The notes under the pieces were generated by a model. It was not told the DNA's origin. It did no database searches and was given only the letters and a program-made list of their open reading frames with translations. Source: Gammaproteobacteria bacterium (GTDB taxonomy: Bacteria > Pseudomonadota > Gammaproteobacteria > Enterobacterales > Alteromonadaceae). From it: a stretch of DNA of 64,000 nt. The DNA lies in NCBI GenBank assembly GCA_018826295.1, contig JAHJZX010000017.1:1-64000 (forward strand), in the 5' to 3' direction. Positions 8,312 to 46,232 of the stretch are shown here, in pieces. A program made the position numbers and the translations under genes. Each line of letters begins with the position of its first letter. The first letter of the stretch is position 1.

Positions 8312-8312
8312 C

Positions 8313-9414: not shown

Positions 9415-9422
9415 CTCCGGAG
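9415..9422. promoter_or_regulatory. Palindromic Shine-Dalgarno shared by two divergent genes
   Basis: CTCCGGAG is its own reverse complement, so it provides GGAG on both strands. On the plus strand it lies 8 nt before the SURF1 ATG (9431); on the minus strand 10 nt before the DUF2909 ATG (9404). Confidence 0.6.
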
Positions 9423-9430
9423 TTTGATTG

Positions 9431-11659: not shown

Positions 11660-12567
11660 GTACAGTGACTAAAGCCAAAGCTATGTCTGCCAGCGGCCGT
11701 GATTATCTGGAGCTGACCAAGCCTAAGGTAGTGGCATTGTTGGTGCTAACGGCCTGGGTTGGCATGATGCTGGCGCAACCGGGTTTGCCGGATTTGCTGA
11801 CGTTATTTGCCGCGACTGCCGGTATCGGCTTGTTATCGGCAGCCGCGGCGGCGGTTAATCATGTGGTCGATCAGCGGATAGATGCACAAATGGCGCGTAC
11901 CTATAGCCGGCCAGTGGCAAAAGGGCGTATCAGCCCATTGCAGGCTGCTAGCTTTGCCGTGGCATTGGCGGTTACCGGCTTTGTGATTCTTTATGCGCTG
12001 GTCAATGCCTTAACGGCCTGGCTGACGCTGGCCAGTTTGTTTGGTTATGCAGTGGTATACACCATGTTTTTAAAGCGTGCCACACCACAAAATATTGTCA
12101 TCGGTGGCCTGGCTGGCGCTATGCCGCCTTTATTAGGTTGGACCGCCATGACCGGCAATATCCATGGCCACGCGCTGTTGTTAGTGATGATTATTTTTAC
12201 CTGGACGCCACCGCATTTCTGGGCGTTAGCAATACACCGCCGCGATGACTACGCCAAAGTCAATATGCCAATGCTGCCGGTAACGCATGGTATTGAATTT
12301 ACCAAAAGCGTCATTTGCCTGTACACCGTAATACTGTTTCTGGTGTGCCTGATGCCATATCTGGTCGGCATGACCGGCGCTATTTATCTGCTGGGCAGCG
12401 CCGTATTGAACTTACGCTTTATGCAATATGCCTGGAAACTGAAGCTGCAAAGCGATAACAGCTCAGCCATGGCAACCTTTAAGTTTTCTATAGTGCATCT
12501 GATGGTATTATTTCTGCTTCTGCTGGTAGATCATTATTTTAAGGTAGCGCCAATCTATGTTTCGTAA
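11656..12567 (+). CDS. ctaB: Protoheme IX farnesyltransferase (heme O synthase)
   Basis: UbiA-family membrane prenyltransferase that adds a farnesyl group to heme B, giving heme O for CtaA. It has 303 residues and about nine transmembrane helices. The first Asp-rich motif is NHVVDQRIDAQMARTYSRP near residues 71-89; the second conserved region is HRRDDYAKVNMPMLP. ELTKPKVVALLVLTAWVG at the N-terminus is typical. It overlaps ctaA (ATGA) and the SCO gene by 11 nt. Also called cyoE. Confidence 0.96.
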   Translation: MSTVTKAKAMSASGRDYLELTKPKVVALLVLTAWVGMMLAQPGLPDLLTLFAATAGIGLLSAAAAAVNHVVDQRIDAQMARTYSRPVAKGRISPLQAASFAVALAVTGFVILYALVNALTAWLTLASLFGYAVVYTMFLKRATPQNIVIGGLAGAMPPLLGWTAMTGNIHGHALLLVMIIFTWTPPHFWALAIHRRDDYAKVNMPMLPVTHGIEFTKSVICLYTVILFLVCLMPYLVGMTGAIYLLGSAVLNLRFMQYAWKLKLQSDNSSAMATFKFSIVHLMVLFLLLLVDHYFKVAPIYVS

Positions 12568-13198
12568 TCTGGCTTATTTGTTCTTAGTGCTGGCGGCATT
12601 GGCTGGCGGCGTGATGTTGTATCAGTGGTCGCAGCTAAGTGCTGAGCCTAAGCTGGCGCTGGTGTATCCGCAGCCCAGAGTACTGGCCGACTTTCAACTG
12701 ACTGATCAGCATGGCGAAATGGTCAATCGGCAACGTTTGTATGGCCAGTGGACACTGGCCTTCGTTGGTTACACCTACTGCCCGGATATTTGCCCGTTAA
12801 CGCTGGCTAAACTGGCCGGCTTGCAGCCAGAGCTGGCAGCACAGCTGCCGGAACCGCTAAAAGTGTGGTTTATCTCGGTTGATCCCAAGCGCGATACAAT
12901 AGAAAAGCTAAACGAGTATGTTAGTTACTTTACTCAACCTGCGGTAATAGGTATGACAGCCGGCCATGACCAGCTGTTTCCGTTTGTGCGTCAGTTAGGC
13001 TTAATGTATGCGCTTAGTGGCAGTACCGATACCGACTATCTGGTTGATCATAGTGCTTCAGTGGTGCTGATTAACCCGCAGGGCCAGCTGGTCGCCATGT
13101 TTAAGCCACCACTTGAAGTGGGAAAACTACCGATACTCGACTCAGAGCAAATGCTGGCCGATTTCCCGCTGGTGCTGCGCAAACTTAAGGCTGGTTAA
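12557..13198 (+). CDS. SCO1/SenC family copper chaperone
   Basis: Membrane-anchored thioredoxin-fold protein that metallates the CuA site of subunit II, 213 residues. A single N-terminal helix (residues 4-24) is followed by the SCO domain. The copper ligands are Cys75 and Cys79 (GYTYCPDICPL) and His165 (YLVDHSASVV); ISVDPKRDT is the family's conserved loop. It is the last gene of the oxidase operon. Its 3' end overlaps the convergent polysaccharide deacetylase gene by 14 nt, with no intrinsic terminator between them. Confidence 0.94.
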   Translation: MFRNLAYLFLVLAALAGGVMLYQWSQLSAEPKLALVYPQPRVLADFQLTDQHGEMVNRQRLYGQWTLAFVGYTYCPDICPLTLAKLAGLQPELAAQLPEPLKVWFISVDPKRDTIEKLNEYVSYFTQPAVIGMTAGHDQLFPFVRQLGLMYALSGSTDTDYLVDHSASVVLINPQGQLVAMFKPPLEVGKLPILDSEQMLADFPLVLRKLKAG

Positions 13199-14207
13199 GC
13201 CAGGGCTGGGAATACCAGTAAAAATAGCCTTTTTTGCTTAGTGAAGGTGCTGTGCAGTTATAACGGCTTCGCCCCTTTGCTAAAGGTTTAGCGGCGCTTA
13301 CCCTAAAGGTGGTGTCGTTAAGCCACTCGGCTTTAAGCACTTCAGACCCGGCAAAGCATTGCAACTGGGCGCGGCTAAAATCTCTGACCTGCAATGACAG
13401 GGTGAGCAAAGGCGGATTAACACCCTGTAATAGCGGATCCACGCCGTGATAATCGCTAATATTAAAAGCCAGAGTACGTAGTTTTTGCGCCAGATCGTTT
13501 AAATCAGCATAGCGGCCAGCTGCCGGAAACCGTGGCAAGCGGGTCAGCACACTGTTATTGCCTACCGCACCGGAGTGCTGACCAATACCAATAAAACCGA
13601 GTTCGCTTACCAGCTGTTCCAGTGCGGTACTGTATTCGCCATACGGATAAGCAAGCCATTGATGGCGTTGGCCGGTTACCTGTGCAATCTTATCCTCAGC
13701 TGCCAGTATGCTTTGCCGCATCCGCGTTAGCCATTGCTGTTCGGTTTCGTTTGCTTCTGGCGCAGCCATATGTTCGTGCCACATTGCATGGTTGGCTACC
13801 AGCACGCCATCGTCAGACATCTGTTTTATCTGCTGCCAGGTCAGTAAAGGGCCATCGCCTTTATCAATGCTGCCGGGGCTGATAAAGATGGTATAAGGAT
13901 AACCAAACTGCTGCAAAATCGGGTGGGCGGTAGTGAAGTTATTTTCATAGCTGTCATCAAAGGTAATCACCACGGCATTGTCTGCCACTGCAGTACCTTC
14001 GCGCAGTTGTTTAATCAACAGATCCAGGCCTATCACCTGAAAGTTGTTGTCTTTTAAGTACTGTAAATGACCGCGCAGTTCATCGGCGGTAACGCTGGTA
14101 GATCTGGGGGTGTCGCTGGCTACATGATGATAAATCAACATCACCGCTGCCTGCGCCGGAAATAACAGGCTAAGCAGTACAGAGTAGAAAAGGATTAACG
14201 ACTTCAT
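13185..14207 (-). CDS. Secreted polysaccharide deacetylase family protein
   Basis: NodB-fold carbohydrate esterase of 340 residues with a signal peptide ending near AQA. Metal-site motifs are visible: VITFDDSYENNF (motif 1, Asp-Asp), NHAMWHEHM (His-x3-4-His metal pair) and WLAYPYGEYS (motif 3). The domain is followed by about 100 residues of beta-rich C-terminus, and the overall plan recalls PgaB-type N-deacetylases. The substrate cannot be told from sequence; no glycan-synthesis genes are adjacent. The ATG at 14207 is chosen over an upstream TTG because it starts the signal peptide, although no strong Shine-Dalgarno is seen. Confidence 0.88.
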   Translation of the reverse strand: MKSLILFYSVLLSLLFPAQAAVMLIYHHVASDTPRSTSVTADELRGHLQYLKDNNFQVIGLDLLIKQLREGTAVADNAVVITFDDSYENNFTTAHPILQQFGYPYTIFISPGSIDKGDGPLLTWQQIKQMSDDGVLVANHAMWHEHMAAPEANETEQQWLTRMRQSILAAEDKIAQVTGQRHQWLAYPYGEYSTALEQLVSELGFIGIGQHSGAVGNNSVLTRLPRFPAAGRYADLNDLAQKLRTLAFNISDYHGVDPLLQGVNPPLLTLSLQVRDFSRAQLQCFAGSEVLKAEWLNDTTFRVSAAKPLAKGRSRYNCTAPSLSKKGYFYWYSQPWLNQP

Positions 14208-14291
14208 TGATATCGGCCTGCCGGTGAATAAAAACAAGCCGTTTTATAACACAGGCAGGCAGAAAAGGCAGCTGATGTCAGCGCAGAAGGC

Positions 14292-14870
14292 TTAGTAGTA
14301 CGAATGTTCGCCGCGCTGGTGCTCAGTGATATCACGCACGCCAGACAACTCACCGCTAAAGCGGGTTAGCAGCTCTTTTTCGATACCTTCTTTTAGCGTT
14401 AAATCGACCTGAGAGCAGCCGTTGCAACCACCGCCAAATTGCAATACTGCGACACCGTCGGGCGTCAGCTCCATTACACTAACCCGGCCACCATGGTTGG
14501 CCAGTTGCGGATTAATTTCGCTGTCGATAACGTACTGCACCCGCTCGATTAAAGAAGCGTCGTCATTCACCTTACGTACTTTGGCGTTCGGCGCTTTTAA
14601 CGTTAGCTGTGAGCCCATCTGATCGGTGACAAAATCAATTTCTGCGTCAACTAAAAACGGCTGGCTCTCCTGATCTACTACTGCATCAAAGCCGGTGAAA
14701 TTTAATTTTAAATCGGTATCTTCAACTGCATCGGGTGGGCAATAAGATACACCACACTCAGCCTGCGCCGTGCCTGGGTTGACCACAAACACCCGAATGT
14801 GGGTGCCGGTAGGTTGTTTTGCCAACAGTTTGGCAAAGTGTTGTTGTGCCTGTTCTGAAATGCTGATCAT
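14292..14870 (-). CDS. nfuA: Fe-S cluster carrier NfuA
   Basis: Scaffold and carrier that delivers 4Fe-4S clusters to target apoproteins, especially under stress. It has 192 residues (E. coli 191). An N-terminal degenerate A-type domain (about 1-95) is fused to a C-terminal Nfu domain with the cluster-binding pair Cys149-x2-Cys152 ([13 protein letters not shown]), at the same positions as in E. coli. [11 protein letters not shown] is also conserved. The classical neighbours comF and bioH lie 3 kb away, separated here by a peptidase gene. Confidence 0.97.
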
Positions 14871-14995
14871 AAGAGTACCTGACTAAATCACTAGGTTAAT
14901 GGCTATGATACTCTTCCCGCTGCTGCCTTGCCAGCCCTGCTTGAGTTTTGCCCCAGTTATGGCTAACGTAGCCGCAGCAAAGAGGAACGATAACA

Positions 14996-17539
14996 ATGAA
15001 GAAATATCTTGCGCTGGTACTGCTGTTAGCCAGCTACCACCTTACTGCTGATACTAAATATGTGCCGGCAGTGGCTAATTCAACCCTGCCGACGCCACAA
15101 CAGGTATTGGGTTTCAATGTTGGACAATGGCATGCCCGTCATGATCAGATCCAACGCTATTTCGAACGATTGGCTCAACAAAGCGGCCGCGCTCAGCTTG
15201 AGGTCATCGGCTACAGTCATGAACAACGGCCATTGCTGCAGTTGGTGATTTCGTCCGAGCAGAACTTACAGCGACTGGAGCAAATACGCCAGCAGCACCT
15301 GGAGGCCGCCCGGCAGGGCAAAGAGCGGGCAGCCGATGCGCCGGTAATAATCTGGTTGGGTTATAGCGTACATGGCAACGAACCCAGTGGCGCTAATGCC
15401 GCCCTGCTTGTTGCCCAGTATCTTGCTGCTGCCAACACAGACGAAGTACGTACCTGGCTGGATAACGCCGTCATTTTACTGCAACCGGTATTAAACCCGG
15501 ACGGCCATGATCGTTTTGCGCTTTGGGCTAATATGCATAAAGGTGCGGCAGCGGTAGCCGATCCGCAGCACCGGGAACACAACGAACCCTGGCCAAATGG
15601 CCGGCCTAATCATTACTGGTTTGATTTAAACCGTGATTGGTTGTTATTACAACACCCGGAAAGCCGTGCCCGTATCGCCCAGTACCAACAGTGGTTGCCG
15701 AATGTGGTTGGCGATTATCATGAGATGGGCACCAACAGCAGCTACTTTTTTCAGCCGGGCATTCCCAGCCGTAATTATCCACTGACACCCAAACGTAACT
15801 TTGAACTAACCAGCGCTATTGCACAGTTTCATGCTGCTGCGTTCGACCAACAGGGCCAGCTGTATTACACCAAAGAGAGCTTTGATGATTTTTACGTTGG
15901 CAAAGGATCGACCTATCCCGATGTGCAGGGCAGTGTCGGTATTTTGTTTGAGCAGGCCAGTAGTCGTGGTCATTTGCAAGACAGTATTAATGGCCCGCTT
16001 AGCTTTGCTGCAACAGTGCAAAATCAGCTGACGGCTTCTTTATCCACCATCCGTGGCGCGGTAGCGAAGCGGGCAGAATTATTAAGTTACCAACAAGATT
16101 TTTATCGCAGCGCCTTACAACAGGCTAAAGCCAGCCGGGTTAAAGGCTATATGCTGACCGAGAGTGCTGATAGCAGCCGTTTAGCCGCGTTATTGGATTT
16201 ATTGCAGCGTCACCATGTTGAGGTATACCAGTTAAATCGGGACTGGCAGGACGACAACAACAGTTATCCGGCGGCAAGCAGCTACTATGTGCCGCTGCAA
16301 CAGCCGCAGTACCGGCTGATAAAAGCGATGTTCAGCACCGAGAAAAATTTTAATGACAACACTTTCTATGACGTGTCGGCCTGGACTTTGCCCTATGCCT
16401 TTAATATTGCTTTTACGCCGTTAAACCGCGAACCGGCCGCCTCGGCGCTGACGGATAGCTGGCCACAGCCGGTCAGGGCAGCACAATTAAGCAAAGGCGC
16501 CTATGCCTACGCGTTTAACTGGCAGGATCAACAGGCGCCGCTGCTATTACAGGCGTTGTTAGAAGAGAAACTGGTTGTGCGCGCTGCAATGAACGATGTT
16601 GTGGCTCAAACCGAAAACGGCCAGGTTAGCCTGCAGCGTGGCGCTATGCTGATTGCCGCCGGATTGCAGACTGAGGCCGACTGGTTTAGCCGTTTACAAC
16701 GTCAGCAGCAGCGCTTTAATTTGCCGGTTTTTGCTATAAACAGTGGCCTGGCGGCCAGCGGCAGTGACTTGGGCAGCCATCAGTTTGCACCAGTGCACCT
16801 GCCGCAGGTATTGTTGATAGCCGGGCCGGGTGTCAGTTCTACAGAAGCCGGCGAAGTCTGGTATAACCTGGAACGTTTAGCCGGTGTATCACCGTCAATG
16901 TCTGAGCCTGGCCGTTTAACTAAACTGGACCTGAGCCGCTACAGCCATATTATTTTGCCTGATGGTAATTACAGCAGTTGGCATGACGCTGAGACCGCCG
17001 CACTGAAAAGCTGGGCAGAGCGCGGTGGTGTATTGTGGGGACACAAGCGCGGGGCTGCCTGGCTGGCCAAAAGTGGCCTATTAAGCGCTGGCGTGTGGCA
17101 GGGTGACGAAATGACCAGCCTGATCCCGTCAGATAATCTGAGTTATGAAGATAAGGAACGGCTGGCCGGCAAACAGCGCATTGCTGGTGCCATTTACCAG
17201 GCCGAACTGGATTTATCTCACCCGTTAACCTTTGGTCTGACACGGGACACCCTGCCGGTGTTTAAAAACAGTACCTTGTTGCTGCAACCAGCAAACCAGC
17301 CCTTTATCAATGTAGCCCTATATAGCAGAACACCGCAGTTAGCCGGGTACACAGCAGCAGAGTATGTGCCGCGCATCAGCCAGTCTGCTGTTTTGCTGGC
17401 GCATAATATCGGTAAGGGCAGAGTGATTGGCATGACGGATAATCCGGTATTCAGGGGCTACTTCTACGGCTCCAGCCGCTTGCTGGTTAATGCCATATAT
17501 CTGGGGCGCAGTTTTAATAGTGTGGCCGACGCTGATTAA
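14996..17539 (+). CDS. M14 family zinc carboxypeptidase, secreted
   Basis: Large (847 residues) exported metallopeptidase. Signal peptide about 1-18; catalytic M14 domain roughly 40-350 with the zinc ligands His126 and Glu129 (SVHGNEPSG) and His242 (GDYHEMGTNSS). NPDGHDRF near 167 and a probable general-base Glu319 (GILFEQASSRG) complete the site. The C-terminal 450 residues hold a region with AGPGVSSTEAGEVWY and SHIILPDGNYSS, resembling a glutamine-amidotransferase-like fold seen in this subfamily. A good AAGAGGAA site precedes the ATG. It sits between nfuA and comF, pairs that are usually adjacent, so it may be a lineage-specific insertion. Its end overlaps comF by 4 nt. Confidence 0.9.
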   Translation: MKKYLALVLLLASYHLTADTKYVPAVANSTLPTPQQVLGFNVGQWHARHDQIQRYFERLAQQSGRAQLEVIGYSHEQRPLLQLVISSEQNLQRLEQIRQQHLEAARQGKERAADAPVIIWLGYSVHGNEPSGANAALLVAQYLAAANTDEVRTWLDNAVILLQPVLNPDGHDRFALWANMHKGAAAVADPQHREHNEPWPNGRPNHYWFDLNRDWLLLQHPESRARIAQYQQWLPNVVGDYHEMGTNSSYFFQPGIPSRNYPLTPKRNFELTSAIAQFHAAAFDQQGQLYYTKESFDDFYVGKGSTYPDVQGSVGILFEQASSRGHLQDSINGPLSFAATVQNQLTASLSTIRGAVAKRAELLSYQQDFYRSALQQAKASRVKGYMLTESADSSRLAALLDLLQRHHVEVYQLNRDWQDDNNSYPAASSYYVPLQQPQYRLIKAMFSTEKNFNDNTFYDVSAWTLPYAFNIAFTPLNREPAASALTDSWPQPVRAAQLSKGAYAYAFNWQDQQAPLLLQALLEEKLVVRAAMNDVVAQTENGQVSLQRGAMLIAAGLQTEADWFSRLQRQQQRFNLPVFAINSGLAASGSDLGSHQFAPVHLPQVLLIAGPGVSSTEAGEVWYNLERLAGVSPSMSEPGRLTKLDLSRYSHIILPDGNYSSWHDAETAALKSWAERGGVLWGHKRGAAWLAKSGLLSAGVWQGDEMTSLIPSDNLSYEDKERLAGKQRIAGAIYQAELDLSHPLTFGLTRDTLPVFKNSTLLLQPANQPFINVALYSRTPQLAGYTAAEYVPRISQSAVLLAHNIGKGRVIGMTDNPVFRGYFYGSSRLLVNAIYLGRSFNSVADAD

Positions 17540-18273
17540 GTTAGCGTGGTTACCGCCACTGTCCACACACTGATGCGCCGCACGCCGTGGCGGCGCAGCA
17601 AACGGCAAATTTCATTGGCGGTAGCACCAGTGGTGACTACATCATCTACCAAGGCCAGGTGTGACGGCAGGCCGATGGTGGTATTAAGTGTAAAACTGTG
17701 GCGTAAATTGCGCTTGCGCTGCTTGCGGCTTAAGCCGACCTGTGCGGACAAATGCCGGCTTTTCTGTATCACGTGCAGCAGTGGTAGCCCCAATTGCTCT
17801 GCTGCGGCCTGAGCTAACAGCTGCGCCTGATTAAAGCCACGTTTACGTTGCCGGGCCTTGTGCATAGGCACATAGACAATGGCGTCAGGCAGGGTTTGGC
17901 CTGTCGTAGTCAGCTGAGCCAACAGCGCGGCAAATTGCAGTTGCAGCAAGTCGCCGGCGGCGTCGTCGGTAAAAAATTTCCAGCGCTGTAGCCAGTGGCG
18001 ATAGGGGTGTTGGTACAGGCTGACACTGAGTAACTGATCAAAGCGCGGTTTCTTCAGCCCCTGCGCTACCTGTGGCAGCCAGAGTAAGTTGTAGTGGCAC
18101 AGCGCATAAGGTAATTGCGGTAACGCCGACTGACAATCGGTGCAAAGCTGGTGTGTTGCGCTTTGCACCGGTAAACTGCACCACAAACATGACGATGGCA
18201 TTAACCAGTGCCAGCCTTGCTGCAACAGACGGATTGCGGAAAATGGCAAATTAACATCCGTATTAATTAACAT
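17536..18273 (-). CDS. comF: ComF family phosphoribosyltransferase-like protein
   Basis: ComF/GntX-type protein of 245 residues. An N-terminal zinc-ribbon-like pair of CxxC motifs (SCLWCSLPV and LCTDCQSAL) precedes a type I phosphoribosyltransferase domain; the PRPP loop reads LALVDDVVTTGATANE near the C-terminus. In competent bacteria ComF is needed for DNA uptake; GntX has been linked to using DNA as a nutrient. The start at 18273 keeps the hydrophobic lead FSAIRLLQQGWHWL common in this family. A start at 18201 is possible. It is divergent from bioH with only 10 nt between start codons. Confidence 0.93.
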   Translation of the reverse strand: MLINTDVNLPFSAIRLLQQGWHWLMPSSCLWCSLPVQSATHQLCTDCQSALPQLPYALCHYNLLWLPQVAQGLKKPRFDQLLSVSLYQHPYRHWLQRWKFFTDDAAGDLLQLQFAALLAQLTTTGQTLPDAIVYVPMHKARQRKRGFNQAQLLAQAAAEQLGLPLLHVIQKSRHLSAQVGLSRKQRKRNLRHSFTLNTTIGLPSHLALVDDVVTTGATANEICRLLRRHGVRRISVWTVAVTTLT

Positions 18274-36317: not shown

Positions 36318-36872
36318 TTACTGGTTGCTGTATTTCTTTTCCAGAATATCTAACCGCGCAGTTTTTACCAGACCTGAGCTATGTATTTGCTGCAGCAGAC
36401 CCAGCAATTCAACATCCTGCCGGGGTTGTACTATGTATACCCCGGTTGCGGCGGCTGAGCGCACAATCTTTAAATTAAACTGCTGCAGTAAGCTTTGCAG
36501 ATCGGTATCTGGACTGCTTAACAGGCTGATATTGCCGGTAACTATGCCGGTTTCACCGGTTAACAGGTTGTCGACGACGGCATTACGGCGAAATTCAATA
36601 ATCTGATCCACATCCGTCGCGGCTGCCCGGTTAACCAGGGTCATATTGGCCAAATCCCGTTGTGCGTTACTGCGATCGGCCAGTGCCTGCGGCACGGCAA
36701 TCAGCTCGGTGTTTAGTTGGTATACGCCATATTTTGCGCTGTTTTGCTTCACGCTAACTTGCTCTGCTGCAACGGTTTCAGTTGGCCGTAACTCATCTTT
36801 TACGCTTTGTGCCTGCACACCCTGGGCCGACAGACAAAGGGCAATGGCTACTATAGATAAACGGGTCTTCAT
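36318..36872 (-). CDS. Putative external chaperone of the adjacent S8 protease (ASP ORF2-like)
   Basis: Exported protein of 184 residues with a signal peptide ending VQAQ near residue 22. The C-terminal part (about 125-180; LKIVRSAAATGVYIVQPR, LVKTARLDILEK) resembles the fold of subtilase propeptides. It starts 18 nt after the S8 protease stop with a strong AAAGGAGT site. The pairing matches the Aeromonas ASP system, in which a separate gene just downstream encodes the maturation chaperone in place of a propeptide. Assignment rests on size, export, context and C-terminal character, not on a search. Confidence 0.72.
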   Translation of the reverse strand: MKTRLSIVAIALCLSAQGVQAQSVKDELRPTETVAAEQVSVKQNSAKYGVYQLNTELIAVPQALADRSNAQRDLANMTLVNRAAATDVDQIIEFRRNAVVDNLLTGETGIVTGNISLLSSPDTDLQSLLQQFNLKIVRSAAATGVYIVQPRQDVELLGLLQQIHSSGLVKTARLDILEKKYSNQ

Positions 36873-36890
36873 AATGTACTCCTTTGACTG

Positions 36891-39140
36891 TTAATGACCA
36901 AACACACGGATAGCCACGCCTTCTAACACTGACGGCTGCTGGTTATTAATATAACCTGCCGGCCAGCGCGGGCTGTCTATTGGCAGATCTGCGCCGTTGG
37001 TATCAACTAACCGGATAGTCCAGCTGCCTTTGGCGCTTTCACCGTAAAACGCATTTGACAGAAACACAGAGTTTTTCAGGATATAGCCCTGAGAGTAGCC
37101 GGCGCTAAAGTCAAAAGCTGGTTCAACTATCGCTTGCTTAGACGACAGCAGTACGCTCTTGGTTCCGGCCGGTGAAGTCACTTCTATGGCTAAGTCGATA
37201 CCAGCAGTCGTCTGGCTGTCCGCTTCAGCAGTAGTTAACTCGGCATTAGCCACATCAAAGGCAAACTGCACGCCTTCAACTACAACATCATCTGTCACTT
37301 CGATAGTCTGTACTGCGCCGTTGGCGTCATTGTCGGCAATAGTCAGTGCCAGCGCAGCGTCACCGGCCTGAGTGCCTAACGCCACCCAGTCGGTGGTGAT
37401 TTGCTCAGCCAGTGCTGCACCATAACTCTTAGCCAAGGCTACGGCAGCACCGGCATTGACGCGGCCAAAACCATACAGGTTATTGTGCGCATAGCCGGCA
37501 CTGTTTTCTACCCAACCCGGGTGAGCAATAAAGCTGCCATCACCTACTGGCAGTACTACCTGCGCATTGTCCGGATCGACTTTAGTGCTGGTTTTTACCA
37601 GAATATCTTTAATTTCGCGGTACGTCAGATTGGGGTTAGCACTGTGGATCAGGCTGACAACACCGGCTGCATTAGGCGCTGCTGACGAAGTACCATTAAA
37701 GGTGCTGGTATAATTACAGCTAGGATTTTCCGGGTGGCCAGGGTAATTAAAGGGCGTAAAAGCTGCAGTATATTCTGGCCAGTCATCGGCTTCGACGCTT
37801 GGAAAGCTTGAGTAACCGCGTAAGCACGTCATTTGATCTGTGGTGACCATGGCTGGTGCCAACTCGCCATATTCGCCGGCCGGGGCCGATACCAGTACGT
37901 TGGCACCTGCGGTAGAGTAGCTGGTGTGTTTGCCGTCTGAGTTGACCGCGGCAACAGACAGATAGTACGGCGTGTTTTGTGATGGCTCAAAGTTACCATT
38001 TAAACAGGTAAGACCCAGTGCATTGGCGCCGCCGCATACGGCACCGGCCCAGGCGATATTACCAGGGCGGCGAAAGGCATTACCGCTGGATTTGATATTT
38101 ACCGCACCCTTACCCTGACGCAGAGTTAACGCCGAATAGGCCTGTACCGCTTCGTCAAACGGATCATACGAGATTACTGCCGGATAGCTGATGCCGTAGC
38201 TGCGGTTAAATACTACTAAAGGTTCTGCTTCGGTAATACCACTACCTGGTATGCCGTGGCTCAGCGCGCTGTTTAAATCAGATTGGGCGCTCAGGTAGTT
38301 CATACCTATAAGCTTGGTATCCGGTGCTACACCGCGCCCACCCAGACCATTCCAGCCTGCCGCGGCAATTAAGCCCGCTACGCTGGTACCGTGGTCGCCG
38401 GTCAGGCTGACTGAGGTTGGGTCTGTTACATTTAGCGCGCCCTCAGCCATATTTAATGAACGGTTTGGCAGGACATTGGCTTGCAAATCTTCATGGTTAA
38501 TTTCCAGGCCTGAATCTACTACTACCGCAATGCTGCCGGTACCGGTAGCGCCTTGCTGGTAAGCGCTGACCACGTTCATATCTTCGCCGGCTACCAGAAT
38601 GCCGTCGTCTAACCGGCTAGCTAACCAGGCACTGATGGCTTCATCGCTCCAGCGCAGTTCTGCTTGTAAAAATGCAGCAATAGCCTCGGCATTCATCGCA
38701 TAGGCTTTTTGGCCGGTATTGCGCAGGTGCCATTGCTGATAAGCCAGTGGGTCTGACACCGGAGCGGCGATATTTAACATGGCTGAAGCAGTTTGCTGGC
38801 CGTCAGATACGGTATAACGCAGGCTGGTTGCGCTATCGTTTAATGGCAGGTAACTGAAGTTAGTACCGTTTACCGTTAACAAGCCGTTAGTTAAGCTGTA
38901 GACACCCTGAGCACCTGTGACGCTAGCGCCATTTTCGCTGATTGCGCTAATGCGTAAGGTATCTTTAATATTGGCATCACTAACTGTAAAACTACCTTGC
39001 TGTGGGACCCAGCTTTTGCCAGCTGCAATGCTGACATCAAAGGCTTCCGGTGCGACGTTTTTGCTACCACCGCAAGCGGTGACAGATAAAGCAATGGCGA
39101 CAGCAATGCCGCTTAATCTGTAATTATTGGCGTTCAACAT
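36891..39140 (-). CDS. Exported S8 (kexin-like) serine protease with P domain, lipoprotein
   Basis: Subtilase of 749 residues. The N-terminus has lipobox SVTAC (Cys23), so it is probably surface- or periplasm-anchored. A beta-rich module at about 30-125 precedes the catalytic domain, with Asp209 (VVVDSGLEINHED), His250 (GDHGTSVAG), oxyanion Asn354 (KSSGNAFRRPG) and Ser485 (FNGTSSAAPNAAG). The C-terminal 130 residues form a P (homoB) domain (YGESAKGSWTIRLVD), as in kexin and Aeromonas ASP. No classical inhibitor propeptide is visible, consistent with the separate chaperone gene downstream. Confidence 0.92.
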   Translation of the reverse strand: MLNANNYRLSGIAVAIALSVTACGGSKNVAPEAFDVSIAAGKSWVPQQGSFTVSDANIKDTLRISAISENGASVTGAQGVYSLTNGLLTVNGTNFSYLPLNDSATSLRYTVSDGQQTASAMLNIAAPVSDPLAYQQWHLRNTGQKAYAMNAEAIAAFLQAELRWSDEAISAWLASRLDDGILVAGEDMNVVSAYQQGATGTGSIAVVVDSGLEINHEDLQANVLPNRSLNMAEGALNVTDPTSVSLTGDHGTSVAGLIAAAGWNGLGGRGVAPDTKLIGMNYLSAQSDLNSALSHGIPGSGITEAEPLVVFNRSYGISYPAVISYDPFDEAVQAYSALTLRQGKGAVNIKSSGNAFRRPGNIAWAGAVCGGANALGLTCLNGNFEPSQNTPYYLSVAAVNSDGKHTSYSTAGANVLVSAPAGEYGELAPAMVTTDQMTCLRGYSSFPSVEADDWPEYTAAFTPFNYPGHPENPSCNYTSTFNGTSSAAPNAAGVVSLIHSANPNLTYREIKDILVKTSTKVDPDNAQVVLPVGDGSFIAHPGWVENSAGYAHNNLYGFGRVNAGAAVALAKSYGAALAEQITTDWVALGTQAGDAALALTIADNDANGAVQTIEVTDDVVVEGVQFAFDVANAELTTAEADSQTTAGIDLAIEVTSPAGTKSVLLSSKQAIVEPAFDFSAGYSQGYILKNSVFLSNAFYGESAKGSWTIRLVDTNGADLPIDSPRWPAGYINNQQPSVLEGVAIRVFGH

Positions 39141-39372: not shown

Positions 39373-40245
39373 CTATGGTAAAGCTGATTTATTTGCTGCG
39401 GCGCTAAGTTGCGTCAGTAAGGCATCGATGATCTGGTTATCCTGCCAGTACTGGTTATGTGACAATGGGTTCCAGCTGGCGGCGAGCCAGCCGAAAAAGC
39501 CGCCGCTGGCGTTAACTTCAATATCGGTTACCAGTGCGGCGTAGCCATCTGATAATTCGGCCAGTGGCCAGCCCAACACATCGTCTTTGTCGTAGTAGTT
39601 ATGCCAGACAAAAGCATTGTTTGGTTTGTTAAACGGTATAACTTGCTCCATGGCATGGGCCGCAACAAAGATCGGAATATTGCAGCCGGTAGTGATCAGA
39701 CTCACCAGCCTGTCGCCACGTAAAAACGCGATATCCTCTTCTGTTAGCGGATTATCGCCACTGATCCCCGCCTGATAGCGCTTAATATCCCGCCAGATGC
39801 CAGCCGCCGGTTTAATGCCGGCTTTGGCTTGCTGTGCATCCCATAAATAGCAGGACAACACCTGACAACCCAACGAATGCGCCAGTATCACCAGCTTGCC
39901 ATCGGCGGTTAGCTGTTGTTTGGCCAGATAGAGCGCGCGGGCAATTTTCAACTGGCTGTAATGGTACAGGCTGTGCGGCTGCTCTTTACGGTGTTCCAGT
40001 GCCGCTGCATCGGCAAAGCCAAACAACATAAAACGCCGCAGTTTGCTCCAGCGTAACCGGGGGCCGGTAGCCTGCCACACCCGCTGTTCGTTGTATTGCA
40101 GTAAATCCTGGTAGTATACGGTGCCACAATACAGCTGAGTTGCATCGGCAGCCAGCTGTTGGGTTAGCTGCCGGAACAGCCTGGCGGCATAGTCGGGCTG
40201 TGTTTCGCCCATGCCATGAATAGTAACCAGTGCGACGCTTTTCAT
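39373..40245 (-). CDS. Alpha/beta-hydrolase-like protein of the KAS III operon
   Basis: Predicted cytosolic protein of 290 residues. IHGMG at 9-13 near the N-terminus resembles a hydrolase oxyanion strand, and VILAHSLGCQVL places a candidate nucleophile Ser124 in a GxSxG-like elbow (A-H-S-L-G). A later acid/His pair cannot be fixed by eye. It is the last of five minus-strand genes, 3 nt after the preceding stop. In the pathway it could release or cleave an acyl product; that is inference from position and fold. Confidence 0.78.
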   Translation of the reverse strand: MKSVALVTIHGMGETQPDYAARLFRQLTQQLAADATQLYCGTVYYQDLLQYNEQRVWQATGPRLRWSKLRRFMLFGFADAAALEHRKEQPHSLYHYSQLKIARALYLAKQQLTADGKLVILAHSLGCQVLSCYLWDAQQAKAGIKPAAGIWRDIKRYQAGISGDNPLTEEDIAFLRGDRLVSLITTGCNIPIFVAAHAMEQVIPFNKPNNAFVWHNYYDKDDVLGWPLAELSDGYAALVTDIEVNASGGFFGWLAASWNPLSHNQYWQDNQIIDALLTQLSAAANKSALP

Positions 40246-40248
40246 CGC

Positions 40249-41109
40249 TCAGACCTGTTGCTGCTTGCGTTGCTGCTCCAGATAGGCATACAGCTGCTCG
40301 GTAAAAAAGCCGTGCATTAAAAAGCGCTGGCCTAAATTCCACGGCCCGACCAGATAATGCGGGTATTTGTTATAGGCCATCTCACGCAGGCTGTTATCGC
40401 CTACCAGGTCGCCAATGCGAATGGCGATGGACTGATCAAGGTTAAAGCCGTTAATGGCATCGCGGTACTCTTCGCGGGTAAGCAGCAGGCAAAATAAACA
40501 CATAAACAGCGCATGGGCACTTTCAAAATCGAGCCATTGCGTGCGCTTTTCACTAAATTCAAACTGTGCCATATCAATGCTGTGCCAATGCTGCCAGTTA
40601 AGTTCGCTTGCGGCTAACGGCTTTTTGGGATGGTGCCAGCTGCCCAGCTCGGCAAATAAGCGAAACAGCTGCTGGTCATGTTCAACAAAGCTGGCGTGTT
40701 GCATATCGGCAATACATTTAGGGTACAGCTGTACCGGGGTAAAACTGCCAGTAGGGCTATTGGCAGCAAGAAAGTTCAGCACATTAGATTCGGTAGCATA
40801 GTGGCGCAATATCAGTAAGTTGGCCTCTTTGCTGACAAAATGGGTGCAAAACCAGCAAATCAGCTTTTGCAGGCTGCTATGCGCGCTAAATTGCGGCAAC
40901 GGCAGGCGTTTAAACAACCAGGTAACATGCAGCAAAATAGCAAAGATAAACTGCAGCAGCGGCCGCACGCCCCAGCGTAGCGGGTTTTGTAAGTCTTTCA
41001 GCCATAAATCCAGCGCCGCTTGCTCGATTGGCAGCGAGTTATCCTTGGCTATGGCGTTTAAATAGGCGCTCGGGCCCTTGCCGCTGCTGTTGTGACGATC
41101 AGTAGTCAT
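40249..41109 (-). CDS. Unidentified protein of the KAS III operon
   Basis: A 286-residue protein I do not recognise. It has one strongly hydrophobic stretch at about 52-70 (LLQFIFAILLHVTWLFKRL) and is otherwise rich in Trp, His and aromatic residues (WHHPKKP, NWQHWHSIDM). Two Cys residues sit in LICWFCTHF. It could be a peripheral membrane enzyme. The ATG at 41109 overlaps the end of the preceding HDO gene by 11 nt; a 15-residue longer form would overlap it by 56 nt. Tight coupling to the neighbours is the best clue to its role. Confidence 0.75.
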   Translation of the reverse strand: MTTDRHNSSGKGPSAYLNAIAKDNSLPIEQAALDLWLKDLQNPLRWGVRPLLQFIFAILLHVTWLFKRLPLPQFSAHSSLQKLICWFCTHFVSKEANLLILRHYATESNVLNFLAANSPTGSFTPVQLYPKCIADMQHASFVEHDQQLFRLFAELGSWHHPKKPLAASELNWQHWHSIDMAQFEFSEKRTQWLDFESAHALFMCLFCLLLTREEYRDAINGFNLDQSIAIRIGDLVGDNSLREMAYNKYPHYLVGPWNLGQRFLMHGFFTEQLYAYLEQQRKQQQV

Positions 41110-41785
41110 GCTCAATCTCTTCCAGTTGCAGGCAATACAGCCTGGCGGTAACACGGGCAGTGCGTACTATGGCAGTGAGCTGCGTTTGGTTTTGGCATAG
41201 ACGGTCTATCAGCTGATATAGCTTTTGCATATGGTCGTCGTCATTGGCACCGTGGTAGCGCATAAAGCGGGTATAGCTGCCATCGCCGCCGCTAGCCTTG
41301 TCTATTTGTGTCGCCCAGTCATTAGCCATTTTCTGACCCAGGCCTTCAATGATCCACATGGCACCAATTAAATCGACCGGATTGGCTTGGCTGGCGCGGT
41401 ACATTAAAAAACCGTGCAGCGCTTCGGTACCAATATTGCGCGGCGCCTGTTGAATGTCGCTTAAGCTGCCGCCGGCGGCAACGTAGTCGCGCTCGAGCAT
41501 TTCATAGTCGCGGTGCTCTTCACGGGCATGGCCGATAATAACTGAGCGCACATCGCTGTAATCGCGCTCGAAGCTGGAGGCGCAGCGGCTGATCCAGCGC
41601 GAGCCTTCTATTACCTGCTGGCGCCAATTCAGCAGCAGCTGGCAATAGTCGGCTTTACTAAACTGGCCACGGTCTAAACGCTGCAATAGCGGCACCCGGC
41701 CAAGCTGGCGCTCAAATTCAAACCAGACCCGCATCAGCGCCTGTAAACATTGTTGGCCCTGTGGGCTTAATAGCTGCTCTGTCAT
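41099..41785 (-). CDS. Heme-oxygenase-like iron-containing redox enzyme (HDO/UndA-like)
   Basis: All-alpha protein of 228 residues of the TenA/PqqC/heme-oxygenase superfamily, iron-containing redox branch. Candidate metal ligands with superfamily-like spacing are Glu60 (QQVIEGSRW), Glu90 and His91 (GHAREEHRDYE), Glu147 (MWIIEGLGQ) and Asp184/His185 (NDDDHMQ). UndA, a fatty-acid decarboxylase making 1-alkenes, and several N-oxygenases belong to this superfamily. The gene abuts the ketosynthase stop with no gap. I infer a diiron oxidase acting on an acyl chain made by that ketosynthase; the reaction is unknown. Confidence 0.82.
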   Translation of the reverse strand: MTEQLLSPQGQQCLQALMRVWFEFERQLGRVPLLQRLDRGQFSKADYCQLLLNWRQQVIEGSRWISRCASSFERDYSDVRSVIIGHAREEHRDYEMLERDYVAAGGSLSDIQQAPRNIGTEALHGFLMYRASQANPVDLIGAMWIIEGLGQKMANDWATQIDKASGGDGSYTRFMRYHGANDDDHMQKLYQLIDRLCQNQTQLTAIVRTARVTARLYCLQLEEIEHDY

Positions 41786-42892
41786 TCAGGCCTCCACGAC
41801 GGTAAGTTGCATATAAGCATTATTAAAACGGCCGCTTTCCGGCACCATGCAGATCAGGGTGTCGCCGGTTTGATAGTGTTGTGTGCGGCGAAACTCGTCC
41901 AGCATGATAAAAATAGAGGCGCAGCCGGTATTGCCGCGACTGTATAAATTGCTATACCACTTGTGTTCGGCGATGCCAACGCCGGCACGTTGCAGCATAT
42001 CGAAGATTTTGCCGCGAAAATAATGCGAGGAATAATGGCACAGTACATGGTCGACCTTGTCCGGTTGCACGCGGCCTTCACTGATCAAACGCAGATAGCC
42101 ATCCACCCCCAGTTTGACAATGTTTTCCAGCAGGCGCACATCCTGACGGATTAACAAGGCCCCGGCAGCTTCAGCTTCGGCATAGGTCGGGTAGTCCTGC
42201 CAGCTTTTGTTGTGGTTGTTGTCTGTCGGATAACCCACGCTCATGCAAACCGGGTAGGCGTCGGCATGCGAAAAGCTGCGGATCCAGTCAATTCGAAAAC
42301 AGCGGCCGCGCGGTTGGGTTTCCAGCAGCAGGGCACCGGCGCCGTCAGACAGCATCCAGCGCAAAAACTCGGCGTTAAAATCCAGTTCTGTGCCGGCGGC
42401 TTCATAACGGCCGGCTTTAAATAAGCGCGAGGTCAACTCGCTGGCAACCACTAAGGCATTGCTTTGCTCGCCGGCCTTTATATTGGTATAGGCCGCTTTT
42501 AGCGCCATCATACTGCTGGAGCAAATACCATGGCTGCTGTGCAGCTCGATATCGCTTAAGCTTAATTCGGCCTGCAACATAGAGCCAAAACCCGGCAGCA
42601 CTACATCGCCCTGGCTGGTGGCGGCACTAAGCATCTTTATCTGGCGTTTACCGATAAAGCTGTCGGTTAAACAGTGCTCTGCTGCCCGCGCCGCCATTTC
42701 GGCGTTCGAGAACAGGGTGTTATGCTTGGCATCAATCGCATAATGCCGGGTATGAATACCGTTAGACTGCAAAATACGCCGTTTTAACCGGCTGGGTTTG
42801 CCATGCACTAAACCTAACAGCGGCTCCATTTCGTCATTGCTGATAGCCGGGCCGGGTAAAAAGTGGCCTGTACTGTTGATATACACACTCAT
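41786..42892 (-). CDS. Beta-ketoacyl-ACP synthase III-like ketosynthase
   Basis: Thiolase-fold condensing enzyme of 368 residues with the KAS III triad: Cys124 (HGICSSSMMALK), His286 (LCHYSSHYF) and Asn321 (SRGNTGCAS). It is longer than housekeeping FabH (about 317), and the flanking motifs (DVVLPGFGSMLQAEL, RWMLSDGAGALLLE) are divergent, so it is probably not the fatty-acid primer enzyme but a specialised one of the type found in secondary-metabolite and alkene pathways. ATGA overlap with the upstream membrane-protein gene, zero spacing to the HDO gene. Confidence 0.88.
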   Translation of the reverse strand: MSVYINSTGHFLPGPAISNDEMEPLLGLVHGKPSRLKRRILQSNGIHTRHYAIDAKHNTLFSNAEMAARAAEHCLTDSFIGKRQIKMLSAATSQGDVVLPGFGSMLQAELSLSDIELHSSHGICSSSMMALKAAYTNIKAGEQSNALVVASELTSRLFKAGRYEAAGTELDFNAEFLRWMLSDGAGALLLETQPRGRCFRIDWIRSFSHADAYPVCMSVGYPTDNNHNKSWQDYPTYAEAEAAGALLIRQDVRLLENIVKLGVDGYLRLISEGRVQPDKVDHVLCHYSSHYFRGKIFDMLQRAGVGIAEHKWYSNLYSRGNTGCASIFIMLDEFRRTQHYQTGDTLICMVPESGRFNNAYMQLTVVEA

Positions 42893-43461
42893 GCCTTTAC
42901 CTTACGCTGTTTTAGTGCCGCCTTTAAGCAGCGCAGGTTTTCTTCCATATAGGGCAATACACACACAACGGCCATAAAGCTCAGATAATACGGCAGGTAA
43001 GTGTCGCCGCCATGGGCATAGGGCATAGGCTGCAAATAAAACTCACCCTGCCAGTCAAATGTCAGCAGTTTCACCACCACCGGGTAGTTAATCACGGCAA
43101 TAAGCAGCAACATATACAACGGCAACGTCGCCAGATAATTATGTGCGTGCATTTCCCATAAGCTGATATGGCGCTTAGGGGCGGCGTAATGCACGTCGTA
43201 GTGGGCTACCGCTTCATGGGCCAGCCAGGCGGCGATACAGATCAGCATAATCAGTACATTGACCTTAAACAGCAGGCAAAGCAAAATCGGCACCGCCATT
43301 TGAATGCCCATTAACGAGTGAATAAGTGACTCTTTTAACCCTGAAGTATGTTCAATGCGGGTGGCGCGATGGCAGCACCAGTCAACAAAACCGGCAATCC
43401 CCCAAAGCGGCAGAAACACATACAACATTAACTGAATAAGCAACTGACTGGTTTGCAACAC
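42889..43461 (-). CDS. Histidine-rich integral membrane protein (putative fatty acid hydroxylase-like)
   Basis: First gene of the five-gene unit, 190 residues with four or five transmembrane helices. Histidines cluster at the membrane surface: DWCCHRATRIEH (31-38), LIHSLM (48), HEAVAHYDVHY (82, 87, 91), and EMHAHNYLATLP (105, 107). This pattern recalls membrane diiron hydroxylases and desaturases, though the order is not a textbook match. The stop overlaps the ketosynthase start (ATGA). Hydroxylase activity is an inference from the His clusters. Confidence 0.75.
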   Translation of the reverse strand: MLQTSQLLIQLMLYVFLPLWGIAGFVDWCCHRATRIEHTSGLKESLIHSLMGIQMAVPILLCLLFKVNVLIMLICIAAWLAHEAVAHYDVHYAAPKRHISLWEMHAHNYLATLPLYMLLLIAVINYPVVVKLLTFDWQGEFYLQPMPYAHGGDTYLPYYLSFMAVVCVLPYMEENLRCLKAALKQRKVKA

Positions 43462-43667: not shown

Positions 43668-46232
43668 TTGAATAGAATGATATTTGGGTTGTTGCTTTGC
43701 ACAAATTTTTTGACTGGCTGTGGCGGAAGCAGCAGCTCTGATACTGGCGTAACAGAGCAAAATAAAGCGCCGACCGTGACTGTAACAAGCGCCACAGTGT
43801 TTGAAACTGAGGCCATAACTCTGACTGCAACCGCAGGCGATACCGATGGCAGTATTGCGAAGTATAGCTGGAGGCAAATGGGCGGAACCGCCGTTAGTAT
43901 TTCTGGCGGCAATACGGCGAGTATAAACTTTACCGCTCCTGCCGTTACTGTCGACCAAATTTTATCATTTCAGGTAACGGTGACTGATAACCAGGGTAGT
44001 ACAGCATCGGCAACATCAATTGTTACGATTAAATTTAATCAACCTCCGGTGATATCCTTGCTAGATACTGCCGTGGATGAAAAAACGGCGCAAACACTGA
44101 CCGCGAGCCTCACTGATGACGGAACTATTATCGCGATAGGCTGGCAGCAAACCGCTGGCCCGGCTATTACGCTAAATGGGGTAGATACTGCAACGGTAAG
44201 CTTTACTGCGCCTGATGTCCAAGCTGACACTGAACTGCAGTTTAGCGTTACTGCAACGGACAATCTGGGTAAAACTACTACTGCTACCGGAGCAGTTTTG
44301 GTCAAAACCACTGATAGTAGTTACCGCATTAAAGGTGTAGTAACAGATTCGCCCATCGCCAATGCTGAAGTAAACACTGAAGTTTCTGGTGTGCTGTATA
44401 CCACAACCGCCAATGCTAACGGGGAATATGTATTAGATATCAAGCTGGCAACTGATGCTGGCGATGAGCTGATAATATTAACAGCAACATCGCCTGTCGA
44501 TGAGCAGGTGCTATTTCACTCTATTTTGGGTAATGCAGAAGATATCCGCACTGCAGCAGGTGGTGATTCTACGCTTACTAACACAGAGTTATTTGCTACT
44601 AATATTACCAATGTCAGCTCAGCGCATTATGCGTTAGTCGTTCAGGCTAATAATGGCAATGTCCCGACAAGCAAAAGTCAGCTGTTACAGGCGGCGCTCA
44701 ACGTAGAAGGCAAGTTATTACTGCCATTTGCAACGGCGGTAAAACTTGTACTGGATTATGCGGCAGGCAACGCTACTTTAATGCTGCCAGCAGAGTTTGA
44801 AACAATTGCCGAATGGTTAGCCAATCGTACAGCTGTGTTGGAATACATCAATCGGGCTCAGTTAAATGCCAGGGCTAATTACGATGAGGCCTTGGCTGCA
44901 ATTCAAGCAGATGAAAGCTTGGTTAGGTTGCAGCCCGATAGCGGAACTGTAGTTGGCCGTTATTATGTTGACAGGACCCTGGGTGACCGTGGAGTTGCGC
45001 AATTCACACTAAACGCAGATAAGAGCGGAGAGTGGCTGGAGCGGGATCTTGGTGGTGCCTTTAACTGGGAGATCACGGCTGACGGTATTGTGTTGAATTT
45101 TGGTACTCCGGGCATGCTGATAGACAATAAACCGATAGCAGAATTTAGCCGTACCGAAACCAGCACCTATTTGCAACAAGTTACACTAACCATTGTCAGT
45201 GGCACTGAAGTCAGCACACAGTTTGCTGTTGAGCGTTTGCAGCTATCTATTGCAGGAGCGCTGTTCGGCTATCAGCAGATTGTTAAAGTCAGCACGGAAT
45301 CGTTTAAAGCTTTTAAGCAAAGTGCTGTAGTACAGGCGACGCAACTTATTGAACTTAACACTGAATATGCACTGCCGTATGCTGGGGTAATCAGCAGCTT
45401 TTCGTCTGAAGCGTATTCGTATCTTTACGCAGATTCCCACCTGGGTACCGCGAAATTACGCTTAGTAGGAGAAGGTGCAAGTGGTGGTATCGCGTATTTT
45501 GAAACTGCTGATTATGTTGCACCCGACAGCTTGGCATTGCAGCATCGTAACTATCCATGGCAACTAAATGATACCGGACAAATCGTTATTAGCCTGTCAG
45601 AGACCGACTACATTGAAATTTCTGCATTCCAGGCCAGGGAATCGTCAGACAACCCATATGTCAGCGTTAAAGCTAAATTGGGGGATATCAGCCGTGCTAT
45701 CAGTTACGCGGCTGCGGCTCAACGTGCTGTGGTTTGGAATACGCAGAACGTACCGGGTATTTATCTGTTGCCCGTTGATCCCTTGGAGCCAAACGTATTG
45801 TTTTGGCTAGAGTTATATGAAGATGGCACTGCTCTTACAGTCTCGACATATGATGCGGACAGTGATGGTAACCTGACACCAGATGAAGCAAATAAAATGC
45901 CCGGCTATTGGCAGTTGGATGAGAACGGAGACTTACATGTCAGACGCTATCGCAACATCCACCGTTACTGTCAGGCAACACAATGGCAGCCGTTGGCCGC
46001 TGATGACTGCCAGCTGTATAACAACAGAACGATGAAGTTGTACAACCTGAGTGATGAAAAGTCTGATGGTAAAAAGGATGTTTCCATCATTATTGATCAC
46101 CGTTTTTATGATAGTTTCTTACGAGGTGGCGATACCGGGAACGCCCAGTTGGGCTATGATGTGCTAAGCAATGGCAGCTACTACAATGCGATCTGGCAGA
46201 AAGTACCGGAACGGCCAACTGCGATAAATTAA
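43668..46232 (+). CDS. Large lipoprotein with Ig/PKD-like repeats
   Basis: Exported lipoprotein of 854 residues. FLTGC is a good lipobox (Cys18), followed by a GGSSSSD spacer. Two tandem Ig/PKD-type repeats cover about 35-212; the first has TDGSIAKYSWRQMGG and FQVTVTDNQGST, the second DDGTIIAIGWQQTAG and FSVTATDNLGKT. A carboxypeptidase-regulatory-like segment follows (about 218-275). The remaining 550 residues are of unknown fold; near 735 DADSDGNLTPDEA looks like a calcium-binding EF-hand/dockerin-like loop. The start is TTG at 43668, 8 nt after AGGGAT; ATG at 43677 is the alternative. It ends at a strong terminator. Confidence 0.85.
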   Translation: MNRMIFGLLLCTNFLTGCGGSSSSDTGVTEQNKAPTVTVTSATVFETEAITLTATAGDTDGSIAKYSWRQMGGTAVSISGGNTASINFTAPAVTVDQILSFQVTVTDNQGSTASATSIVTIKFNQPPVISLLDTAVDEKTAQTLTASLTDDGTIIAIGWQQTAGPAITLNGVDTATVSFTAPDVQADTELQFSVTATDNLGKTTTATGAVLVKTTDSSYRIKGVVTDSPIANAEVNTEVSGVLYTTTANANGEYVLDIKLATDAGDELIILTATSPVDEQVLFHSILGNAEDIRTAAGGDSTLTNTELFATNITNVSSAHYALVVQANNGNVPTSKSQLLQAALNVEGKLLLPFATAVKLVLDYAAGNATLMLPAEFETIAEWLANRTAVLEYINRAQLNARANYDEALAAIQADESLVRLQPDSGTVVGRYYVDRTLGDRGVAQFTLNADKSGEWLERDLGGAFNWEITADGIVLNFGTPGMLIDNKPIAEFSRTETSTYLQQVTLTIVSGTEVSTQFAVERLQLSIAGALFGYQQIVKVSTESFKAFKQSAVVQATQLIELNTEYALPYAGVISSFSSEAYSYLYADSHLGTAKLRLVGEGASGGIAYFETADYVAPDSLALQHRNYPWQLNDTGQIVISLSETDYIEISAFQARESSDNPYVSVKAKLGDISRAISYAAAAQRAVVWNTQNVPGIYLLPVDPLEPNVLFWLELYEDGTALTVSTYDADSDGNLTPDEANKMPGYWQLDENGDLHVRRYRNIHRYCQATQWQPLAADDCQLYNNRTMKLYNLSDEKSDGKKDVSIIIDHRFYDSFLRGGDTGNAQLGYDVLSNGSYYNAIWQKVPERPTAIN

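Follow-up and report, generated by a model that had tools for sequence, protein, structure and literature searches.

Organization of the gene cluster

The window considered here is a 64,000-nucleotide stretch of DNA from a gammaproteobacterium of the family Alteromonadaceae (contig JAHJZX010000017.1), and the subject of this report is an operon of five genes on its minus strand between positions 39,373 and 43,461. From first to last, these encode a His/Glu-rich membrane protein (referred to as MEM), a ketosynthase (KS), a heme-oxygenase-like putative dimetal oxidase (HDO), a member of the Pfam family DUF6999, and an α/β-hydrolase-like protein (ABH). The genes are tightly packed. Those for MEM and KS overlap by 4 nt, those for KS and HDO abut with no intervening base, the HDO gene and the DUF6999 gene (read from its ATG start) overlap by 11 nt, and a gap of 3 nt precedes ABH. 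Re-derivation of the coordinates gave the same strand, overlaps, and gap as a preliminary description of the locus. The gene set, ABH excepted, is not a product of chance, for it recurs across phyla. Its conserved core is a module of three parts, KS, HDO, and DUF6999, the first two of which are frequently fused into a single polypeptide.

Distribution of the module

When 84,980 species genomes were scanned with a DUF6999 alignment, at least 518 related stretches came to light, of which the best 80 were kept as named loci (L030 to L109). Counts over these 80 loci describe the best matches only and are biased toward the kin of the query. The genes were called on the basis of codon usage, a procedure that missed some of them, and the presence of KS, HDO, MEM, and ABH, together with the motifs, was instead recounted from all open frames. 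KS and HDO lie beside DUF6999 in 77 of the 80 loci, and the remaining three are cut by contig ends. L032 retains HDO alone, which starts at the contig end with KS beyond it, and in L046 and L057 the DUF6999 gene starts 350 and 405 bases, respectively, from the contig end with KS and HDO out of view. KS and HDO are fused at 58 of these 77 loci, Cellvibrio and Collimonas being examples of genera with the fused form, and are separate in 19, although in one of the latter (L071) they occupy overlapping frames that may represent a frameshifted fusion. In 71 of the 78 loci having KS or HDO, no called gene separates these from DUF6999; the median gap is -4 nt, and 60 of the gaps do not exceed 20 nt. 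Called genes intervene between KS/HDO and DUF6999 in the other seven, and in four of these the intervening genes include a desaturase of family f36 (the second FA_desaturase family described below). In the acidobacterial locus L043 (positions 7171-9937), two related genes encoding proteins of ∼450 amino acids stand between KS-HDO and DUF6999, and the first of these is without a Pfam match.

By their record titles, the 78 loci, many of which are metagenome bins, belong to the Pseudomonadota (61), Myxococcota (5), Acidobacteriota (4), Bacillota (4), Cyanobacteriota (2), Chlorobiota (1), and Planctomycetota (1), and the module is spread over at least seven phyla. Within the phylum of the window, which we take to be the Pseudomonadota, DUF6999 was found in 9 of 398 sampled genomes, and in all nine, including that of the window, KS and HDO are adjacent to it. 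Caulobacter vibrioides, used as a control, also gave a DUF6999 match. Both the co-occurrence of the genes and the KS-HDO fusions are firm. Indeed, the suggestion in the preliminary description that KS and HDO belong together is borne out by this survey of gene neighborhoods, and its concern that the genes might not co-occur in other genomes has been answered.

Ten of the 147 genomes in the family of the window, its own included, encode a KS of at least 68% identity (the window and L144-L152). MEM, KS, HDO, and DUF6999 are present at all 11 window-like loci, namely these ten and L180. The latter lies on an 801-kb plasmid record from Pseudoalteromonas sp. THAF3. In this record, the sole annotated plasmid found, the MEM and DUF6999 genes are labeled "hypothetical protein", and no function is named. 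The plasmid location is consistent with movement of the module.

An alignment of 102 KS sequences was assembled from 91 module KSs (including that of the window), eight from dialkylresorcinol (DAR) loci, and three FabH proteins, with rows of 290 residues or less excluded. A quick tree calculated from 56 of these rows, in which FabH, the outgroup, sits on a very long branch, groups the window-like KSs together (SH-aLRT 99), next to a clade from other Pseudomonadota whose members are mostly fused. The fused or split label changes three times on this tree. The KS of Acaryochloris is positioned among those of the gammaproteobacteria (SH-aLRT 99), which suggests transfer.

The ketosynthase

The KS gene (positions 41,786 to 42,892, minus strand) encodes a protein of 368 amino acids with the Pfam domains ACP_syn_III and ACP_syn_III_C. 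Its best NCBIfam model is StlD/DarB (NF005293), which it matches with 378 bits, under the curated cutoff of 450. The KS closest to it among solved structures is StlD (5gk0), with an E-value of 1.6e-72 and 248 bits over 365 residues. The next solved enzyme of the KAS III fold scores only 42.6 bits, and the FabH entries are far behind. The Cys/His/Asn triad, C124/H286/N321, is kept in 102 of the 102 aligned rows. E152, which aligns with a glutamate of StlD, is a glutamate in 98 rows and an aspartate in four. The NCBIfam and PDB rankings rule out a plain FabH/KAS III identity. Judged from its sequence, the KS belongs to the StlD/DarB kind, the characterized members of which form 1,3-cyclohexanediones, and by analogy it would form such a dione as well. 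Thus, of the KAS III-like enzyme with an intact Cys/His/Asn triad that had first been proposed, the triad stands and the plain KAS III assignment does not.

The heme-oxygenase-like protein

HDO (positions 41,099 to 41,785, minus strand; 228 amino acids) matches the Pfam family Haem_oxygenas_2 (PF14518) with 36.6 bits against a cutoff of 28.9. The predicted model, with a pLDDT of 95.3, superimposes with VIA-align Z-scores of 26.9 onto 3dde (rmsd 1.8, 218 aligned), 25.0 onto CADD (1rcw; rmsd 1.9, 209 aligned), and 20.8 onto UndA (4wwj; rmsd 3.1, 224 aligned). On the basis of this model, the protein has the heme-oxygenase-like fold.

The published HDO motif is E-H-E-H-(D/E)-H, and ∼85% of the HDO groups analyzed have E-H-X-H-D/E-H (PMC11363339). 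The module HDO departs from it. The first metal-binding helix reads H86-x3-E90-x2-D93, followed by E147, H178, D182, and H185, such that the second position of the motif is an aspartate whereas E90, E147, H178, D182, and H185 are kept. Q57, H86, E90, D93, E147, H178, D182, and H185 are invariant in a 38-row alignment and in 89 of 89 module HDOs, D93 included. The 89 come from 78 named loci (the remaining two of the 80, at contig ends, have no HDO), ten window-like loci, and the window. In contrast, H57, Y86, E90, and H93 are found in all 18 control HDOs from outside the module, which differ from it at positions 57, 86, and 93. These controls were taken from 17 loci of an order-wide search (37 genomes with matches, of which only those with a locus were read) and from a second HDO encoded in the genome of the window. 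A further 12 module rows, representing eight distinct genomes and read beside the controls, have Q57, H86, E90, and D93.

In its fold, the H-x3-D-x2-H segment near the end, and the glutamate preceding that segment, the module HDO resembles the superfamily that includes CADD, UndA, SznF, MboA, and FlcD. It differs in having E-x2-D with an invariant preceding histidine where the controls have E-x2-H. In a profile alignment with 3dde, to which no function has been assigned, E90 falls on a glutamate, D93 on a histidine, and H86 on a histidine that is also present in 3dde, and thus H86 by itself does not set the module apart. The likely set of putative ligands is E90/D93/E147/H178/D182/H185, perhaps with H86. 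The altered motif, E-x2-D in place of E-x2-H, is firm at the level of sequence. The preliminary description of HDO as an HDO-type enzyme holds, with the correction that the metal-binding motif is altered. Its doubt as to whether the metal ligands would be conserved is removed, the putative ligands being invariant.

The second HDO of the same genome (L158, contig C7, positions 6000-18,000) has the canonical E-x2-H and lies beside genes for an AMP-binding enzyme and a short-chain dehydrogenase. At L022, an AMP-binding gene also precedes HDO. FlcD corresponds to PDB entry 3BJD according to PMC11363339, and that entry was deposited as a putative 3-oxoacyl-ACP synthase. Our guess is that the deposition name may stem from KS-HDO fusion proteins.

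The DUF6999 protein

The fourth gene (positions 40,249 to 41,109, minus strand) encodes 286 amino acids from its ATG start. The list of open reading frames gives instead a longer frame with a GTG start at position 41,154. The protein matches DUF6999 (PF22523) with 310.3 bits (cutoff 27) over profile positions 6-275 of 275, nearly its full length. It is a plain member of a family that carries no function. What had been described simply as an unknown protein has, in fact, a Pfam name and turns out to be the constant partner of KS and HDO.

The predicted model is all-helical with a mean pLDDT of 85.0. A comparison of the model with the PDB revealed no similar solved structure (Foldseek best E-value 1.5; VIA-align best Z-score 3.9, rmsd 4.7 over 150 residues). 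The best match among viral models had an E-value of 0.86, and a search of the PDB sequences gave nothing. No known fold was thus found among PDB structures, PDB sequences, and viral models, and the predicted structure possibly represents a new fold, the absence of a PDB match not being proof of one. Residues invariant in 39 of 39 aligned proteins include D23, R45, R102, H103, H144, D145, D194, D225, N247, H266, and E271. A hydrophobic stretch of 19 residues, present in 33 of the 39, would fit membrane contact.

The first and last genes of the operon

MEM (positions 42,889 to 43,461, minus strand; 190 amino acids, GTG start) is His/Glu-rich and contains several hydrophobic stretches. In an alignment of 15 members, D27, H31, E44, H48, H82, E103, H107, and E174 are invariant, which suggests a metal site and possibly a membrane metal enzyme. 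MEM has no Pfam match over the cutoff and no PDB match below an E-value of 0.45. The FA_hydroxylase and FA_desaturase membrane diiron enzymes adjoin the module in other lineages, and MEM, too, is a His-rich membrane protein. A profile comparison of MEM with each of these families found nothing (hhalign E-values of 0.35 and 0.42) and does not show MEM to be a fatty-acid hydroxylase, but the comparison is weak because the two families barely match each other.

MEM is part of the branch to which the window belongs, being present at 11 of 11 window-like loci. The only one among the 80 named loci is in the planctomycete L070, where it follows DUF6999 by 23 nt. In the phylum of the window, MEM occurs in 14 of 398 genomes, and just two of these (that of the window and G368) are among the nine with DUF6999, which shows that MEM also exists apart from the module. 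The neighbors of such separate homologues (L164-L175) are varied and include, in several genomes, a catalase, an FAD/Rieske oxidoreductase, a zinc alcohol dehydrogenase, and an isochorismatase-type gene, which indicate no function.

ABH (positions 39,373 to 40,245, minus strand; 290 amino acids) has only sub-threshold Pfam matches (Abhydrolase_1, 15 bits, cutoff 25.8). It is found at three of the 11 window-like loci (the window, L144, and L145) and, by tblastn, at none of the 80 named loci. ABH is a local, lineage-specific addition that does not belong to the conserved set. Its occurrence at only three window-like loci rules it out as a core part, and the hydrolase initially counted as a pathway member must be withdrawn.

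Accessory genes and comparison with dialkylresorcinol loci

At 48 of the 80 named loci, an FA_desaturase (family f2), an FA_hydroxylase (f3), a second FA_desaturase (f36), or a MEM homologue was called within 2.5 kb on the same strand. These consist of f2 with f3 (35 loci), f2 only (3), f3 only (3), f36 only (5), f36 with f3 (1), and MEM (1).

The module was also compared with the dar pathway, which it resembles in that StlD is the best solved match of the KS, StlD/DarB is its best NCBIfam model, and the triad is kept. It differs in that the module KS falls under the family cutoff, no homologue of DarA, DarG, or DarH was called at its 80 loci, and the KS is fused to or adjoins HDO and DUF6999. 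The genome of the window also contains a DAR-type locus (L154, contig C65, positions 67,000-80,000), in which a DarB-like KS, DarG, and DarH all score over the NCBIfam cutoffs. Its KS matches StlD/DarB with 588 bits. A 305-amino-acid product of this locus, which we take to be DarA-like, matched no Pfam or NCBIfam model, and by eye it appears flavodoxin-like. It served as the DarA-like query. DarA is listed as the DAR-aromatase in a table of PMC3949708. DarA-, DarG-, and DarH-like genes are all present at eight of the eight DAR loci read, out of ten KS matches of that class, whereas no homologue of any of the three was found among the called genes of the 80 module loci, some of which are cut short. 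An ordinary DAR locus is thereby ruled out.

A possible reaction sequence

The product of the module is probably an oxidized molecule derived from fatty acids. The mechanism that we favor, tentatively and at somewhat less than even confidence, is that the KS makes a carboxylated cyclic dione and that HDO decarboxylates it oxidatively, replacing the aromatase DarA. The scheme is an inference. From general metabolism, the KS would draw two fatty-acyl thioesters, one of them 3-oxoacyl and the other 2-enoyl (the identity of the first being our own reading), and would join them, as DarB does, to a 4-carboxy-2,5-dialkylcyclohexane-1,3-dione. This product would be passed directly to HDO. UndA converts a fatty acid to a 1-alkene and CO2 with the carboxylate on Fe1, the oxidized site being C3-H or the carboxylate (PMC13108848). 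By an oxidative decarboxylation of the UndA type, the dimetal site of HDO would use O2 to release the ring carboxyl as CO2 with loss of the adjacent C5-H. The resulting ring double bond would lead, by tautomerism, to a dialkylresorcinol, or to a cyclohexenedione, accomplishing in one step the job of DarA. Decarboxylation of this kind by HDO would explain both the KS-HDO fusion and the failure to find DarA. DUF6999 might then be a membrane-associated helical enzyme that acts on the HDO product, after or together with HDO, or a factor that handles that product. Lineage-specific membrane diiron-type enzymes (FA_desaturase with FA_hydroxylase, a desaturase alone, or possibly MEM in the window) could tailor the alkyl chains. 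The class of product originally suggested, a modified fatty-acid-derived molecule, remains sensible.

Several observations weigh against this scheme. The other module KSs scored against StlD/DarB, L077 (418 bits), L031 (363 bits), and L153 (327 bits), fall below the cutoff of 450 as does that of the window, such that none of the four tested reaches it. The six DAR-locus KSs included in the tree group together (SH-aLRT 100), but their clade lies inside the module KSs without a resolved order, in a quick tree of 56 rows with a long outgroup. HDO is without the canonical second-ligand histidine on its first core helix, and thus its chemistry, and even its metal content, may differ from those of UndA. 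The role of DUF6999 within the module is a guess. Finally, at 32 of the 80 loci no accessory gene of the kinds sought was called within 2.5 kb, and a number of these loci are near contig ends.

Four other explanations must be weighed. OleA joins acyl chains head to head, and the KS could do likewise to give a β-keto acid. Oxidative cleavage or decarboxylation of that linear product by HDO would then yield an alkene, an enone, or a ketone. This explanation, the nearest to the idea of the preliminary description, draws on the fold that HDO has in common with the fatty-acid decarboxylase UndA and on the lack of any DarA-like aromatase found near the module. Among solved structures, however, StlD is by far the nearest to the KS (248 bits over 365 residues), and the next enzyme of the KAS III fold reaches only 42.6 bits, a comparison in which OleA was not treated separately and which was made with no search for OleB/C/D-type genes. 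We consider a linear product rather unlikely. In a different order of events, HDO would act first, making by desaturation or hydroxylation of an acyl substrate the unusual partner for condensation by the KS. The clustering of desaturases and hydroxylases with the module speaks for this order, as does the desaturation through loss of H2 carried out by some HDOs (MboA and VarO; PMC13185094). Against it, 2-enoyl units are already supplied by ordinary fatty-acid metabolism. In addition, the substrate ligates Fe1 in the five substrate-bound 3H/3C HDO structures (PMC13108848), through the carboxylate in UndA (PMC13108848) and in MboA (PMC13185094). A thioester has no free carboxylate to offer Fe1, and an HDO-first order seems distinctly improbable.

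That the module is a rearranged DAR locus with its other genes elsewhere might be supposed from the presence of L154 in the same genome. L154 has its own KS, however, and the absence of called DarA, DarG, and DarH homologues at the 80 module loci and the single clade of DAR-locus KSs likewise argue against such a rearrangement, which we regard as very unlikely. It might also be imagined that HDO has lost its redox function and that the altered motif marks a structural or cofactor-free role, the module then yielding the KS product only. An aspartate in place of the second ligand histidine, and Q57 in place of the histidine of the 18 control HDOs, would be in keeping with this. The invariance of H86, E90, D93, E147, H178, D182, and H185 in 89 of 89 module HDOs would be unexpected for a dead metal site, and we give the suggestion the least credence of all.

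Relation to published work

The literature searched, with subscription papers mostly outside it, contained no mention of "DUF6999" or "PF22523". Nor was a pathway or product with the KS-HDO-DUF6999 set described among the papers listed, as judged by titles, the beginnings of abstracts, and passages; within that scope, the search agrees with the preliminary description, which knew of no such pathway. About a dozen HDOs have been functionally validated according to an HDO review (PMC13108848), in the main text of which the words "fusion" and "thioester" are absent; no HDO joined to a ketosynthase is named in the sections read. A module this common among species genomes, yet without a product in the literature searched, represents a large blind spot. 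As a whole, the picture of a widespread lipid pathway, in which a KS fused to an HDO with a rearranged metal site would use O2 for an oxidative decarboxylation that leaves a dialkyl ring, aromatic or dienone, and a new-fold DUF6999 protein would complete it in at least seven phyla, is a possibility that we hold with more doubt than confidence. If the proposed mechanism is true, HDO chemistry would come to include ring-forming oxidative decarboxylation, and the HDO fold a variant form of metal binding. Bacterial lipids or signals would gain a new class, and DUF6999 might prove to be an enzyme of a new fold. The KS-HDO fusions are single proteins directly open to assay.

Surrounding sequence

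Promoter-like sites were not in excess (6 versus 6.0 in shuffled sequences), and terminator-like sites numbered nine versus 6.3 in shuffles. Upstream of the operon, and divergent from it, lies a plus-strand gene at positions 43,668-46,232, the product of which contains two K319L-like PKD stretches and, judged by eye, a lipoprotein-like start. On the minus strand at positions 36,318-39,140 lie a gene for an S8 peptidase with a P-domain and then a small gene whose product has a sub-threshold match to ORF_2_N (27.6 bits, cutoff 29.2). ORF2 proteins of the ORF_2_N kind are chaperones of Aeromonas-type serine proteases.

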